From NCBI GenBank assembly GCA_017642885.1, contig JAEPOM010000001.1:310001-374000 (forward strand): DNA of 64,000 bases, read 5' to 3'. Below the pieces are notes generated by a model. It searched no databases. It saw only the letters and a program-made list of their open reading frames with translations, and was not told the DNA's origin. The position numbers and the translations under genes are program-made. Source of the DNA: Henriciella sp. (lineage in GTDB: Bacteria; Pseudomonadota; Alphaproteobacteria; Caulobacterales; Hyphomonadaceae). Below, piece by piece: positions 32,167-45,468 of this stretch (within the stretch, counting starts at the first letter, position 1; each line of letters begins with the position of its first letter).

Positions 32167-33504
32167 CTAACCCAAACGCTGGAGCGCGCGTTCGCGTCCC
32201 ATCAGGACGAGCATGTCGCCAACGCTTGGGCCGCGCTCCATGCCGGTGAGGGCTTTGCGGAGCGGCATGAACAAGCCTTTGCCTTTGCGACCGGTCTGTT
32301 CTTTCAGAGAAGAAGTCCAGGTACCCCAGGTCTCGGCGGTGATATCGCCTTCCGGCAGCAATGTTGCCGCGGCTGATATGAAGTCTCGGTCTTCGTCGTC
32401 AACGATCGGATCGATTTCGCCAAACGCTACGGGCACAAATCGCGCCGCGTCTTCCACCGTTTCGCAATTTTCTTTGACCAATTGCCAGAAAACCTCGTTC
32501 GCCGCCTGAGGATCGATTGCTGCTAGGCGGGCCTGGGCGTCTTCGAATGTCATATTGTGCGTGATCGCGGCGTTGAGACTGCGAAGCTCTGCTTCGTCGA
32601 AACGTGCCGGGGCGCGGCCAATCTTGTCGAATGCGAACTCCTCGGCGAGCTGCGCCAGCGACTCGCGCATCTCGACATTGTCACTCGTGCCAAGTTTGCC
32701 GAGCAGCGAGCAAATCGCGAGAGGCTCAATACCCTGGCTGCGCAACTCACCCATGCCGAGCGACCCCAGGCGCTTCGAAAGACTGGCGCCGTCTGTGCCA
32801 ACCAGGAGCGGTGTATGCGCCATATCGGGCGCGGTGCCGCCCAAAGCTTTGAAAATTTCGATCTGAGCGCCGGAATTGGTGACGTGATCCTCTCCGCGGA
32901 CAACGTGCGTGATGCCGGCCTCGATATCGTCGACACAGCTCGGGAGCGTATAAAGATAAGACCCGTCGGCCCGGATCAGAACCGGATCGGACAAGGAGCT
33001 TGTATCAATCGCCTGCTCGCCGCGCACGAGATCGGTCCAGACGATACGTTCCCCGCTCAGTTTGAAGCGCCAATGCGGTTTGCGGCCTTCGGCTTCGAAC
33101 GCAGCTTTCTCATCGTCGGTAAGGTCCAGGCCAGCGCGATTATAGACAGGCGGTTTGCCCCGAGCGCGTTGAAGCTTTCTCTGACGATCAAGCTCGTCCG
33201 CGGTTTCGTAACACGCATATAGCAGGCCCATGTCACGCAACTTGTCGGCGGCGGCGTCATATTGGTCAAAGCGCTCTGATTGTTTGAACGTCTTGTCCCA
33301 GGTCAGTCCCAGCCAGGTCAGGTCATCGCGAATGCCTTGCTCATACTCCGCGGTCGAACGCTCAGTATCGGTATCATCGATGCGCAGAATGAACGTGCCG
33401 CCCTGGCCTTTGGTGAAGAGCCAGTTGATCAGCGCGGTGCGGACGTTTCCGACATGCAGTTTCCCGGTCGGAGAGGGAGCAAAACGGACGACAGGTTGGG
33501 TCAT
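32167..33504 (-). CDS. gltX: Glutamate--tRNA ligase
   Basis: This class I synthetase charges tRNA-Glu, and in many alphaproteobacteria a paralogue mischarges tRNA-Gln for later amidation by GatCAB. The HIGH-like motif is FAPSPTGKLHVGNVRTALINWL and the KMSKS-like motif is SLSKRLGSL. GGTFILRIDDTD and VRGEDHVTNSGAQIEIFKALG are conserved. It is 445 residues, a normal size. Whether it is the discriminating or the nondiscriminating copy cannot be told without the second gltX. The link matters because an unusual tRNA-Gln lies in the window. Confidence 0.95.
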   Translation of the reverse strand: MTQPVVRFAPSPTGKLHVGNVRTALINWLFTKGQGGTFILRIDDTDTERSTAEYEQGIRDDLTWLGLTWDKTFKQSERFDQYDAAADKLRDMGLLYACYETADELDRQRKLQRARGKPPVYNRAGLDLTDDEKAAFEAEGRKPHWRFKLSGERIVWTDLVRGEQAIDTSSLSDPVLIRADGSYLYTLPSCVDDIEAGITHVVRGEDHVTNSGAQIEIFKALGGTAPDMAHTPLLVGTDGASLSKRLGSLGMGELRSQGIEPLAICSLLGKLGTSDNVEMRESLAQLAEEFAFDKIGRAPARFDEAELRSLNAAITHNMTFEDAQARLAAIDPQAANEVFWQLVKENCETVEDAARFVPVAFGEIDPIVDDEDRDFISAAATLLPEGDITAETWGTWTSSLKEQTGRKGKGLFMPLRKALTGMERGPSVGDMLVLMGRERALQRLG

Positions 33505-41508: not shown

Positions 41509-42444
41509 TTATGACACCTGCTTAACAAATTTTTCGAACACTTCATTTTCCGGGTCGAAGACCTGGCTTACTGTTGTGATTGCAACAGATCCCGCTCCAA
41601 TACTGGCCAGGTGCCGCGCAGCTTCTCTGGCCATTGGAGAAGGGCACAAAGCCGTGCGGTCATTAAGCGAATTTAGTCCGAGCGCGGTCATTTCCGCTTC
41701 GCTGACCGGATGGGACAGCTCTAACCGCGCCAGGGTTGTCGCTCGTGCTGTTGCGGCAACGCCGTCCAACAATTCCCGAAGCGGCGCCAAGGCTGTCTCT
41801 GACCACTCAGCTTTCAAGGACGTTGTCAGCGCGGCCTGACTTTTCAGAATCACGCCGTCCTGCAGGATCTTCAATCCATTGGCTTTCAAGGTGGCCCCGG
41901 TCGAGGTGATGTCCACGATGACCTCCGCCGACCCGGCTGCGGGCGCAGCTTCGGTAGCCCCTGCACTTTCGACCAGCCGATATTCCCCCACCGCCCGCTC
42001 GGCAAAGAATCGCCGCGTCAGACTGAGGTACTTTGTAGCCACTCTCATCCGACGTCCATGGCGCTCACGAAACAAGGCCCCTGCCGCTTCCAGGTCCGCC
42101 ATGGTTTCAACATCAAGCCAGGCCGCAGGAACAGCCACGATCACATCTGCGCCGCCAAATCCGAGCCGGTGCAACACTTCAAAATCGGCCTCAGGTGAAG
42201 CCGATAGATCGTTCAACAAATCCTCGCCTGTAATGCCGAGATGGATCTGACCTTCAATAAGGCCGGTGGCGATTTCCCGGGCTGATAGAAGCATCACGTC
42301 GACATCGCCCAGCCCTTCGAGCTCGGCGCTATAACCGCGTCCGCCGCCCTTCTGGCGCAGCTTGAAGCCGCTCGCAGACAGCCATTGCTCGGACTTTTCC
42401 TTCAACCGCCCTTTGGACGGAATCGCGATCGATAAGCGGGTCAT
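41509..42444 (-). CDS. hisG: ATP phosphoribosyltransferase
   Basis: This catalyses the first step of histidine synthesis, ATP + PRPP to phosphoribosyl-ATP. The 311 residues show LSIAIPSKGRLKE, GLIEGQIHLGITGEDLL, RVATKYLSLTRRFF and the PRPP loop VDITSTGATLKANGL. This is longer than the short HisG (about 210-230 residues) that normally needs HisZ, yet a hisZ gene lies immediately upstream with an ATGA overlap. The extra C-terminal segment (from about 235) is therefore worth noting. It closes the hisSZG operon and is followed by a terminator. Confidence 0.93.
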   Translation of the reverse strand: MTRLSIAIPSKGRLKEKSEQWLSASGFKLRQKGGGRGYSAELEGLGDVDVMLLSAREIATGLIEGQIHLGITGEDLLNDLSASPEADFEVLHRLGFGGADVIVAVPAAWLDVETMADLEAAGALFRERHGRRMRVATKYLSLTRRFFAERAVGEYRLVESAGATEAAPAAGSAEVIVDITSTGATLKANGLKILQDGVILKSQAALTTSLKAEWSETALAPLRELLDGVAATARATTLARLELSHPVSEAEMTALGLNSLNDRTALCPSPMAREAARHLASIGAGSVAITTVSQVFDPENEVFEKFVKQVS

Positions 42445-43568
42445 GAACTTGCTCCCGAAACGGTTTCGAGGCGGTGCGGAATCACAATGCCGCCAATCGC
42501 GGTTGCGGTCACAGCGCCGCCAGAAAGATCTGAGAGCAGCGAATCATACCGCCCACCTGCCGCGATTGGGCGCTGCATCGCCGTTGCTGTGGCCCCGGTC
42601 GCGATCTCGAACACGAAGCCATCATAATACGTAAAGCGCCGACCGAATCGCGTTGCGAATGTCGCCGTTCCAAACAGGTTGGCGAAATCCGATCGCGCCA
42701 ACCGTTCGGTGCGCAATGAGAAGGTCTCCAATAAACCCTCCAGACCGTTCAGGCCCGCATCCTCGGCGAGCTTCTGTAGCGCAGCAGGCGCATCCTGGAA
42801 TGGCAGATCGAGAGAAAGAAGCGCGGTCAGAAACTCGTCGATTTCAGACGACAAACTCGTTTCGGCCGCAGAGGCGGCCTGTTGAGACAGGCGCTCCACC
42901 ACTTCATCCGACGTTCGTTCGCCGACGGGCTGCAGTCCTGTCATGGCATATATATCGTCTACAAAAGCCGCAATTTCTGTCCGGTCCATGCCTTTAAGAC
43001 GATGCGCAATTCCGGCCTGGCTGTCGGCGTGACCAGACAAGTATGCGCGAACCCCGCCTTCCTGACGGAACGCCCGTTTGAGACCAGCGGAGACATCGTC
43101 CGGCAATCCGAGCGTATCGACAAAACCTGGAAAGATCGAAAGATCGCCAAACGCGGTTTGTCCTGATGAAACTCCCGCCGCGGTACACGCGTCGGCCAAA
43201 GTTTCAAACAGCCAGACATCTTCGTCTACACCGCGCGGCGCGCCAAAACGTTCCAGGCCAATCTGTTCGTACTCCACCGGCTCACCCACAAGCGACGGCA
43301 GTCGAAAGACAGGCCCGCGATATCGCCGAATCGATTCCCCTGCGGGGTGGCTACCACGTGCTGAAATCTCGGCCTGCGCCACAGGCAGCGTCAGATCGGG
43401 ACGCAGCGCCCATTCGCGACCATCGCCGTCGGCGAAGGTACAAATCCGGCTGCGCACCACTTCGCCTGACAGCTCCAGCGGCACAGCAGCTTCAATGATC
43501 ACAGGAACGTCGACACTGTCGCCGCCCCGTTTTGCGATGGTTGAAAAAATCAGGTCGGAGAGGCTCAC
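42441..43568 (-). CDS. hisZ: ATP phosphoribosyltransferase regulatory subunit
   Basis: HisZ is a HisRS paralogue without aminoacylation activity that completes the catalytic and histidine-sensing complex with HisG. The 375 residues retain the class II fold: FADGDGREWALRPDLTLPVAQAE (motif 2 region) and RYDSLLSDL..GGAVTATAIGG near the end. The HisRS-type histidine loops are degenerate, as expected. It overlaps hisS and hisG by four bases each, so the three proteins are made in a coupled unit. Confidence 0.92.
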   Translation of the reverse strand: MSLSDLIFSTIAKRGGDSVDVPVIIEAAVPLELSGEVVRSRICTFADGDGREWALRPDLTLPVAQAEISARGSHPAGESIRRYRGPVFRLPSLVGEPVEYEQIGLERFGAPRGVDEDVWLFETLADACTAAGVSSGQTAFGDLSIFPGFVDTLGLPDDVSAGLKRAFRQEGGVRAYLSGHADSQAGIAHRLKGMDRTEIAAFVDDIYAMTGLQPVGERTSDEVVERLSQQAASAAETSLSSEIDEFLTALLSLDLPFQDAPAALQKLAEDAGLNGLEGLLETFSLRTERLARSDFANLFGTATFATRFGRRFTYYDGFVFEIATGATATAMQRPIAAGGRYDSLLSDLSGGAVTATAIGGIVIPHRLETVSGASS

Positions 43569-45040
43569 TGGTCCGCCTCCAGGATGGCCTGAATGCGAGC
43601 GATCATTTCTGCTCGCGGCGCTTCGAATTGGCCGGGACGCGCTTCGCGGTACTCATCATTGCTGGCAATCGCAGCCGCCTGGCGCGCGCCCTCTTTCAGA
43701 TCCTTGATAGTCACCACGCCCTTTTCCAGCTCGTCGCTTCCAACCATGATCACAGCCGGAGCGCCGCGGCGATCGGCATATTTCATCTGCGGGCGCATGC
43801 CGGAACTTCCCATATAGGCCTCCGCCCGGACGCCGGCTGAGCGCAGCTCCGTGGCGAGTTTAAGCGCTTCTGAGGGATCCTCACGGTCCATGTTCAGCAC
43901 AACAACTGGCCCATTGAGCGTTCCGATAGAGCCACTGATGGAGAACGCCGCTGCCAGACGGCTCACACCAACCGAGAATCCTGTCGCGGGAACTTTCTCG
44001 CCTGTGAAGCGAGCGACAAGGTCGTCATATCGCCCGCCGCCTCCGACTGAGCCGATCCGCACGGTGTTGCCGTCCTCATCGACCGTATCCTTGAGCAGCT
44101 CGGCCTCGAAGACCGAACCGGTATAATATTCCAATCCACGTACGACGGATGGATCGATTGTGACATCGCCTTCAGGGGCGCCGAGTGCCTCTAAACCGCG
44201 CGCGATCGCATCAAGCTCTGAGAGCCCGGCGGTTGCTTCTTCGCTATTGCCGACGGCTTGTCCGAGTGCTTCGAGCGTTTCGCTGCGCGTCGCGCGACCC
44301 GCTTCTGCAAATGCCAGCACTTGCTTGACCGCGGCGGCATCGAGTCCGGCCCCTTTGGTAAAGTCTCCGCTTTCATCCATTCGGCCAGCACCGAGCAAGT
44401 CCGCGACGCCGCTGGTGCCAAACTTGTCCAGCTTATCAAGCGCCCGCAGGATGGTTAGACGCGCGCTCTCGTCATTGGCGCCGACGTTTTCGAGCACGGC
44501 GTTCAGCAGACGTCGTGTGTTTACGCGGATGGTGAACTCGCCATCAGCTGCGCCAGCTGCGCGCATCGCTTCAGCCGCCATGGCAATCATTTCAGCGTCC
44601 GCATGCGCCCCGGCTGCGCCGACGGTGTCAGCGTCACATTGGAGAAACTCGCGAAACCGCCCAGGCCCAGGCTTCTCATTGCGCCAGACCGGACCTGCTG
44701 CATAGCGTCGGAACGGCTTCGGCAAGGTTTGCCAGTTTTCTGCAGCGAACCGGGCCAGCGGCGCCGTCAGATCGTAGCGCAGGCTCATCCATTGCTCGTC
44801 TTCATCCTGCAGCGCGAACACGCCAGCATTCGGACGATCATCGTCCGGCAGGAACTTGCCAAGGGCATCAGCGAATTCAAACGCCCCGGTCTCAAGCCCT
44901 TCAAATCCCCAGCGCCGGTAAACGCCGGTGATCTTTTCAATCATGGCCTGCTCAGCATGGATCAGATTTTCGCGCTTGTCCGGAAAGCCGCGCGGCTTGC
45001 GTGCCAGATCAATCGGTTTCGGCTGTTTGGTCTTGCCCAT
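43565..45040 (-). CDS. hisS: Histidine--tRNA ligase
   Basis: This class II synthetase charges tRNA-His. The 491 residues contain motif 2 SLRYDLTAPLARFAAENW and FRRYAAGPVWRNEKPGPGRFREFLQCDADTVG, the histidine loops LEYYTGSVFEA and GGGGRYDDLV, motif 3 GFSVGVSRLAAAF, and the C-terminal anticodon domain. It is first in the hisS-hisZ-hisG operon. A His-codon leader peptide and alternative hairpins lie about 200-270 bases upstream, with a tRNA-Gln gene between, so expression is probably attenuated by histidine supply. Confidence 0.95.
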   Translation of the reverse strand: MGKTKQPKPIDLARKPRGFPDKRENLIHAEQAMIEKITGVYRRWGFEGLETGAFEFADALGKFLPDDDRPNAGVFALQDEDEQWMSLRYDLTAPLARFAAENWQTLPKPFRRYAAGPVWRNEKPGPGRFREFLQCDADTVGAAGAHADAEMIAMAAEAMRAAGAADGEFTIRVNTRRLLNAVLENVGANDESARLTILRALDKLDKFGTSGVADLLGAGRMDESGDFTKGAGLDAAAVKQVLAFAEAGRATRSETLEALGQAVGNSEEATAGLSELDAIARGLEALGAPEGDVTIDPSVVRGLEYYTGSVFEAELLKDTVDEDGNTVRIGSVGGGGRYDDLVARFTGEKVPATGFSVGVSRLAAAFSISGSIGTLNGPVVVLNMDREDPSEALKLATELRSAGVRAEAYMGSSGMRPQMKYADRRGAPAVIMVGSDELEKGVVTIKDLKEGARQAAAIASNDEYREARPGQFEAPRAEMIARIQAILEADQ

Positions 45041-45100
45041 GGGGATGCCTTTGTATCGGTCGCGGTCCGTCTAGACGAAGCCGCCGCAGGTGTGAAGCTT

Positions 45101-45174
45101 TGGATGCCGGGGCTGGGATCGAACCAGCATTGACTGAGTCAAAGTCAGTTGTTCTTCCACAAGGCGACCCGGCA
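45101..45174 (-). tRNA. tRNA-Gln (UUG), atypical
   Basis: On the minus strand the 74 bases fold as a tRNA: acceptor TGCCGGG/CCCGGCA (U1-A72), anticodon stem ACTGA/TCAGT with loop CTTTGAC (anticodon TTG), variable loop CAAT, T stem GCTGG/CCAGC with TTCGATC, then T and an encoded CCA. Two features are odd. The D stem GCC has no good partner: only G10-C25 pairs, with C-A at the next two. The discriminator base is U rather than the usual G for tRNA-Gln. It lies between the his attenuator and hisS. Confidence 0.8.
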
Positions 45175-45202: not shown

Positions 45203-45239
45203 TCACGTTATTTGGAGAAGGAATTTTATGAAAACGTGA
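45203..45239 (-). repeat. Additional 7-bp inverted repeat in the his leader
   Basis: On the minus strand TCACGTT (45233-45239) is complementary to AACGTGA (45203-45209), around a 23-base AT-rich loop. The left arm overlaps the 3' edge and T-run of the attenuator terminator, so it may compete with it. Confidence 0.5.
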
Positions 45240-45264
45240 GGCGCACCGAGATCGTTCGCGCCTC
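45231..45264 (-). terminator. Candidate his attenuator terminator hairpin
   Basis: On the minus strand GAGGCGC (45258-45264) pairs perfectly with GCGCCTC (45238-45244) around a 13-base loop, and TTTT follows after ACG. The 5' arm is also needed for the upstream hairpin 45257-45274, so the two are mutually exclusive. The T-run is short, so termination may be partial. Confidence 0.6.
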
Positions 45265-45274
45265 CTCGGGCGCG
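45257..45274 (-). promoter_or_regulatory. Candidate his antiterminator hairpin
   Basis: CGCGCC begins right after the leader peptide stop (minus strand, 45269-45274) and pairs with GGCGCG (45257-45262) around CGAGGA. A ribosome at the leader stop codon would cover the first arm and free GAGGCGC for the terminator. A ribosome stalled on the His codons would leave it free to pair. Confidence 0.6.
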
Positions 45275-45313
45275 TCAGGTCTGTTGATGATGGTGATGCA
45301 GTCTTGTTTTCAT
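45275..45313 (-). CDS. his operon leader peptide
   Basis: A 13-codon frame reads MKTRLHHHHQQT then TGA. Four consecutive His codons (CAT CAC CAT CAT) followed by two Gln codons are extremely unlikely by chance upstream of hisS-hisZ-hisG. The E. coli his leader has seven His in a row, and this is the same idea in a shorter form. The stop codon is immediately followed by the first arm of the antiterminator hairpin. No clear Shine-Dalgarno is seen. A TTGACG (-35-like, 45344-45349) lies upstream, but the -10 is weak. Confidence 0.85.
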   Translation of the reverse strand: MKTRLHHHHQQT

Positions 45314-45468
45314 GCCGCGGCCATTAGCTACCCAGCTGCGAAGCGTCAAGCCCGACCGCAAGATCATCGTTTCTGATCGGCAAGCGAGAATCAATAAAAT
45401 TTCACGGATAAATCAACCGTAAGTTATAGCCTCCCCCCTATGGTCACGGGGAAACTAGGGCCATTTAT

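Follow-up and report, generated by a model that had tools for sequence, protein, structure and literature searches.

The minus strand of the window (the whole 64,000-nt stretch of a Henriciella sp. contig that was analysed) carries a short leader ORF, followed by two hairpins, a tRNA-Gln gene, hisS, a hisZ-like gene and hisG. In the direction of transcription, the features are as follows.

45344..45349, minus strand: TTGACG, -35 element of the putative promoter P1
45321..45326, minus strand: TAATGG, -10 element of P1, placed by alignment and spacing, 7 nt from the leader ATG
45275..45313, minus strand: leader peptide ORF, with four His codons and then CAA CAG, conserved in relatives
45269..45274, minus strand: arm 1, CGCGCC, predicted 5′ arm of the antiterminator, adjoining the stop codon
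45257..45264, minus strand: arm 2, GAGGCGCG, common to the predicted terminator and antiterminator (45257-45262)
45238..45245, minus strand: arm 3, TGCGCCTC, predicted 3′ arm of the terminator
45231..45234, minus strand: short T-run, TTTT, 3 nt past the terminator stem
45101..45174, minus strand: extra tRNA-Gln(UUG) of phage type, with U73 and a D-stem weakened in this genome, from Rfam and model searches
45091..45096, minus strand: TTCACA, -35 element of the candidate promoter P2
45068..45073, minus strand: TAGACG, -10 element of candidate P2, downstream of the tRNA and upstream of hisS
43565..45040, minus strand: hisS, histidine--tRNA ligase, over the cut-off of NCBIfam TIGR00442
42441..43568, minus strand: hisZ-like gene, ATP phosphoribosyltransferase regulatory subunit, whose top NCBIfam matches are hisZ models, below their cut-offs
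41509..42444, minus strand: hisG, ATP phosphoribosyltransferase, over the cut-off of NCBIfam TIGR00070

Translation of the leader ORF (45313-45275, minus strand) gives MKTRLHHHHQQT followed by a stop codon, which bears out the four successive His codons that a first-pass annotation, made from the sequence alone, had described on this strand. No other short ORF in the window has four consecutive His codons, and 100 first-order Markov simulations yielded a mean of 0.03 and a maximum of 1. The amino acid that the run of this short leader encodes is also the one served by the genes behind it. The same annotation had placed a tRNA gene and then hisS-hisZ-hisG behind the leader. A tRNA-Gln(UUG) is indeed located at 45174-45101, between the leader and the hisS start at 45040. 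While hisS and hisG exceed their NCBIfam cut-offs, the intervening gene does not and is therefore termed hisZ-like.

The distribution of the leader was assessed in relatives. A hisS match was obtained in 98 of 105 genomes of the family, and the region upstream of the gene was examined in 88 of these. A leader with a His run precedes hisS in 62 of the 88; the other 26, some of which belong to Hyphomonas (genus g5), display no such leader, one of these regions being cut short. The leaders of Hyphomonas and the main Henriciella clade mostly take the form MNTxxHHHHHHA/S, and those of the window's own subclade begin MKTxx. A covariance model of the leader and its hairpins, built from 14 sequences and applied at E values up to 1e-4, matched 63 of 398 genomes of the order. 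These include 61 genomes of the window's family, each with one match save for a single genome that has a weak second match. Caulobacteraceae-type hisS loci (L116-L140 without L120) have a His leader of another design; in 21 of 24 a different, longer His-rich leader with two His clusters occupies the same place, no leader was found in one and the remaining two are cut short.

The two hairpins are mutually exclusive, as the first-pass annotation had proposed. In the predicted antiterminator CGCGCC (45274-45269) pairs with GGCGCG (45262-45257), while in the predicted terminator GAGGCGCG (45264-45257) pairs with TGCGCCTC (45245-45238), and the two structures exclude each other because both use 45262-45257. 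Folded alone, the antiterminator and terminator have energies of -11.6 and -16.5 kcal/mol, respectively. The region as a whole does not stand out from shuffled sequences in its folding (z of -1.2 to -1.3), and in its minimum-energy structure arms 1 and 3 are the ones that pair. Folding energy of the whole region, not being significant against shuffles, was rejected as evidence; support for the hairpins comes instead from conservation. In the 33 of 50 distinct leader segments used for the pairing counts, standard pairs fill 99.5% of cells for arms 1:2 and 96.6% for arms 2:3, compared with at most 64.1% and 74.6%, respectively, in slid controls. Arm 1 begins immediately 3′ of the stop codon in all 62 leaders, being exactly CGCGCC in 57 and a one-base variant in five. 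The arms are nearly invariant, and covariation, which the annotation had proposed to look for, is consequently weak, with one pair in each helix changed on both sides; the pairing itself is kept. These comparisons establish, at the level of sequence, the leader, its His codons and both helices. The annotation had staked its interpretation on the His-codon runs and hairpins recurring in Hyphomonadaceae, and regarded their absence among close relatives as fatal. Both recur, the leader in 62 of 88 loci and the mutually exclusive hairpins across 33 distinct sequences, and the earlier reading of the region as a histidine attenuator before hisS is supported.

The T-run is less uniform than the arms. 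The TTTT that the first-pass annotation attached to its terminator is present at 45234-45231, but only 13 of the 62 leaders have TTTT after the stem, and a terminator scan of the window region found no intrinsic terminator. The window's subclade has GTTTTC past the stem. In 47 of 62 leaders (loci L043-L056 and L144-L183) GTGTTC takes the place of the T-run. As TTTT lies behind the terminator in so few relatives, the mode of termination is unproven.

Upstream of the leader, the P1 pattern TTGACn-17 nt-TA, followed by 6-10 nt between the -10 hexamer and the ATG, is present in 62 of 62 cases, and a stricter form of this test is satisfied by base-shuffled sequence at a rate of 0.0006. The P1 spacing is thus also established by comparison and, because it is of the same type in all 62, the leader RNA is predicted to start at or near the ATG. 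The P1 transcript probably begins at the leader ATG or a few bases away from it, making it a leaderless or near-leaderless RNA. The trpL RNA of Sinorhizobium meliloti has its 5′ end at the ATG of the leader (PMC7298713), and leaderless mRNAs are common in Caulobacter, 375 having been reported for C. crescentus in a paper whose main text does not name hisS (PMC4117421). A promoter scan of the window region found nothing. Directly before hisS, 55 of 62 genomes keep a P2-like site with 17-nt spacing (rate of 0.0016 in base-shuffled sequence), although the pattern was picked after the alignment had been viewed. By eye, sites resembling P2 can also be made out in genomes of the family without such a leader. 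Given candidate P2, transcription of hisS may in some cases begin past the leader. No conserved promoter for the tRNA itself was seen by eye between the terminator and the tRNA. For this reason, and because the gene is flanked by the attenuator on one side and the P2-like site on the other, the tRNA may be made by P1 read-through only.

Taken together, the locus is very likely a ribosome-mediated transcription attenuator for histidine that precedes hisS-hisZ-hisG. P1 would start the mRNA at or beside the leader ATG. With an ample supply of charged tRNA-His, the ribosome would reach the stop codon and cover arm 1; arms 2 and 3 could then pair, and transcription would halt. A ribosome stalled at one of the His codons, or at the first of the Gln codons, would leave arm 1 free to pair with arm 2; no terminator would then form, and the polymerase would proceed through the tRNA-Gln into hisS-hisZ-hisG. 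The ribosome footprint extends ∼11-12 nt beyond the first A-site base. On this geometry, a ribosome halted at any of the His codons (6-9) or at the Gln codon in position 10 should leave arm 1 free, while one at the stop codon should cover it. With a phage-type tRNA-Gln captured between the switch and hisS, read-through from P1 would also yield that tRNA, and P2 would probably supply hisS at a basal level. Of the switch outlined in the first-pass annotation, the leader, the His codons and the helices are conserved, whereas stalling and termination, together with the transcript starts, tRNA processing and the role of P2, are what we infer from this arrangement.

Two other interpretations accept the leader but alter its role. 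The attenuator may be of minor importance for hisS if most hisS mRNA originates from P2, such that the leader mainly governs the P1 transcripts and, where present, the tRNA. The promoter-like site with its 17-nt spacer in 55 of 62 genomes, far above the shuffled rate, and the similar sites seen by eye in genomes without a leader are consistent with this proposal. The post hoc choice of the P2 pattern from the alignment, however, weakens its case, and a leader conserved this strongly can be expected to matter; we view a dominant P2 as rather unlikely. It is also conceivable that the leader acts other than by intrinsic termination, for example through Rho-dependent termination or RNA stability. 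The scarcity of TTTT past the stem and the negative terminator scan point in this direction. The presence of two mutually exclusive hairpins in an attenuator-like placement, with the stem followed by GTTTTC (window's subclade) or GTGTTC (47 of 62 leaders), nevertheless makes such a mode of action improbable.

The tRNA gene was mentioned in the first-pass annotation without further description; its presence is correct, but its identity as a phage-type tRNA-Gln that tracks Gln codons in the leader was missed. The annotation likewise did not record the P1 promoter of leaderless type, the P2-like site ahead of hisS, the pair of Gln codons, or how rarely relatives have a good T-run. Comparison establishes both the gene and its distribution. 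The extra tRNA-Gln(UUG) is found in 7 of 105 family genomes, at the his locus only, and all seven also contain an ordinary tRNA-Gln(UUG). A tRNA model built from the seven his-locus copies, which are thus its own training set, scores over 90 bits among the 105 family genomes only at these seven loci (the next best match scores 71.3), and at E values up to 1e-15 it finds only its seven training genomes among 299 of the order. All seven copies have the anticodon UUG and the cloverleaf of a bacterial tRNA-Gln(UUG). Four of the five anticodon-stem pairs show both-sided changes among the copies while the anticodon is unchanged, indicating that the his-locus gene evolved as a tRNA. A tRNA-like regulatory decoy for HisRS was also considered, and is ruled out by the constant UUG and the both-sided changes in the anticodon stem. 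Rfam scores lie at 56.4-61.6 bits for five genomes, at 47.2 for G114 and at 42.6 for the window, the last being the lowest of the 37 tRNA matches in that genome. The window copy has lost two of its D-stem pairs and may therefore be decaying. A U1-A72 pair is present in seven of the seven his-locus tRNAs. Such a pair, in combination with GatCAB and no GlnRS, is the identity rule for indirect tRNA-Gln charging. In the Henriciella genome gatB exceeds its cut-off, while no glnS was found over cut-off, which makes indirect charging of tRNA-Gln probable. The genome contains three partial matches of GluRS/GlnRS type, none of which is over the glnS cut-off, and a GluRS-like (gltX) ORF of 445 aa is located in the window at 32167-33504 (minus strand), ∼12 kb from the tRNA-Gln.

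The his-locus tRNA-Gln looks phage-derived. A 24-base tRNA motif matches 12 viral contigs, every one of which contains multiple tRNA genes, from 5 to 29 in the part of the contig covered. The motif lies inside a called tRNA-Gln in 11 of these, eight reading CUG and three UUG; in the twelfth, L208, it runs past the end of the stretch. The start TGCCGGGTCGTCTAA is common to the tRNA-Gln genes of the viral clusters and the his-locus copies. The closest relative seen, L207:1522-1596, comes from a viral contig on which ∼2.3 kb hold 13 tRNA genes together with a tmRNA gene. This copy, which reads UUG, agrees with the his-locus tRNA in its acceptor stem and in U73, and displays 81% identity to the copies in G016, G023 and G035 and 77% to that in the window. 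The other viral copies range from 64 to 80%, and among the 20 of 118 phage records listed, Pseudomonas phage tRNA-Gln shows ∼77-78% identity over 93% of the length. Origin from the genome's ordinary tRNA-Gln is less likely, as identity in that case is 64-72%, compared with 77-81% for L207. The viral tRNAs sit in clusters and the motif-bearing copies mostly read CUG, whereas the his-locus gene is a single bacterial gene within a biosynthetic operon and reads UUG. A plasmid search gave four partial matches. The exact 24-base pattern occurs in 0 of 385 genomes of the class, a result of little weight given that the window's own copy fails the pattern.

The leaders that precede an intact tRNA share a further property. 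Gln codons are present in seven of these seven leaders, in the forms HHHHQQT (four), HHHHQHM, QQHHHHQHS and QQHHHHHS, compared with 1 of 55 leaders without an intact tRNA. The exception, G013, has a tRNA remnant from which part of the T-arm is deleted. Two explanations may be advanced. In one, the His attenuator captured the phage-type tRNA-Gln, evolved Gln codons and came to sense both amino acids, with the codons lost upon decay of the tRNA; the Gln codons would then also answer a shortage of charged tRNA-Gln and give the captured tRNA a feedback. In the other, the Gln codons are incidental, CAY and CAR being one base apart, four His codons being sufficient, and the tRNA and Gln codons sharing nothing more than ancestry. 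The substitutions in the His tract favour dual sensing. Where the tRNA is present, the non-His residues are Gln in 10 of 10 cases. In tracts without it, P, L, Y, K, I, C, N and R are found, and Gln in just 2 of 26, both in G013. Excluding G013, 0 of 54 leaders lacking the tRNA contain Gln despite many other substitutions, which is difficult to reconcile with an incidental origin, although the retention of Gln codons by G013 beside a broken tRNA is in keeping with it. The Gln positions also differ between lineages, being residue 10 or 10-11 in Henriciella and 4-5, once additionally 10, in genus g8; that most g8 codons are at positions unlike those of Henriciella again speaks for dual sensing. 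Remnants of the tRNA were recognized by eye in several relatives, clearly in G015, partially in G003 and faintly in G026 and G001, and at the site of CAA CAG the remnant-bearing relatives display CCA AAG (HHLHPKT) or, in G003, CAT CAT (HHHHHHM), as expected if the codons are lost with the gene. G006 has no tRNA remnant and a leader reading HHHHHHR. That the tRNA lies past the attenuator but ahead of the P2-like site is also consistent with its control by the leader.

The phylogenetic evidence is limited by the number of events. On a hisS tree of 72 rows, 58 of which have leaders, the tRNA and the Gln codons each change three times, which is compatible with an incidental association. Independent pairs number two on starred branches and three on all branches; on the starred branches Gln differs in the same way as the tRNA in 1.9 pairs on average, shows no difference in 0.1 and never goes the opposite way, but the pairs are too few for the test to reach 0.05. 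A model of dependent evolution fits better than one of independent evolution (LRT 15.9, chi-square p ∼0.003). Such a test can mislead when events are few. Further points against dual sensing are that the ordinary tRNA-Gln(UUG) is present in all seven genomes and that the copies in the window and G114 look weakened. Moreover, Gln occurs in 4 of 21 Caulobacteraceae-type His leaders without such a tRNA, lying between His codons in L130 and L139 and outside them in L119 and L133, in line with an incidental origin. On balance, dual His/Gln sensing is plausible but unproven. We regard it, and the history of capture, codon gain and codon loss, as a tentative proposal with the lesser share of our belief, while the case for incidental Gln codons is about evenly poised.

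Comparison with known systems places the attenuator in a familiar class. At the gathering score Rfam reports only the tRNA in the window, and at E values up to 10 the tRNA and one chance match, with neither RF00514 nor a T-box. In the seven tRNA loci no family besides tRNA was found, and 13 other family loci gave no match. RF00514, the his operon attenuator of enterobacteria, is likewise a short leader with a His-codon run, competing antiterminator and terminator, and histidine genes downstream. It differs in that its model matches neither the window, the 13 other family loci nor the seven tRNA loci, and in that the system described here would control hisS-hisZ-hisG, uses two hairpins with one common arm and has a leaderless-type start. 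The trpL attenuator of S. meliloti is, similarly, an alphaproteobacterial, ribosome-dependent system with a 14-aa leader and an RNA that starts from the ATG; it responds to Trp instead of His and has been tested experimentally, and the available part of the report mentions no tRNA gene behind it (PMC7298713). In Bacillus, His-rich leader peptides precede hisZ and a hisS paralogue, and hence the same gene families, but these are leaders of Firmicutes, unlike the alphaproteobacterial leader of the window; that study reports that the leader sequences of Firmicutes and Proteobacteria are not similar (PMC2965389). A HisR repressor has been reported in some Caulobacterales (PMC9413887). In three of three Caulobacteraceae loci searched (L131:1223-1392, minus strand, and also L129 and L136), the Caulobacter sRNA CC3513 (RF01528) covers the part of the hisS upstream region that holds the His leader, in the orientation opposite to both leader and gene; it has no match in the window. 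CC3513 may be antisense to the attenuator, or may be the attenuator RNA with its strand mistaken.

A literature search by title and abstract yielded no description of this attenuator, or of a tRNA gene behind a leader-peptide attenuator. Vitreschak and co-workers may already have described this attenuator in 2004. The attenuator alone may thus be a known type of switch at a newly seen locus, with a prior description possible. It provides a compact His attenuator of leaderless type before hisS-hisZ-hisG across Henriciella and Hyphomonas, with no Rfam match in the loci searched. The captured tRNA in combination with Gln codons in the leader is a candidate novelty. If dual sensing were true, a tRNA gene would be regulated through ribosome stalling at its own codons, and the codon set of an attenuator would have been rewired once a tRNA gene landed behind it; the lineages with intact, broken and lost tRNA constitute a natural series for testing this. 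The E. coli ilvGMEDA and thrABC attenuators have mixed control codons, all of which match products of the operon's pathway. They resemble the present leader in that one leader carries codons for several amino acids, whereas the counterpart of the second codon in the present case would be a tRNA gene that the operon itself encodes.
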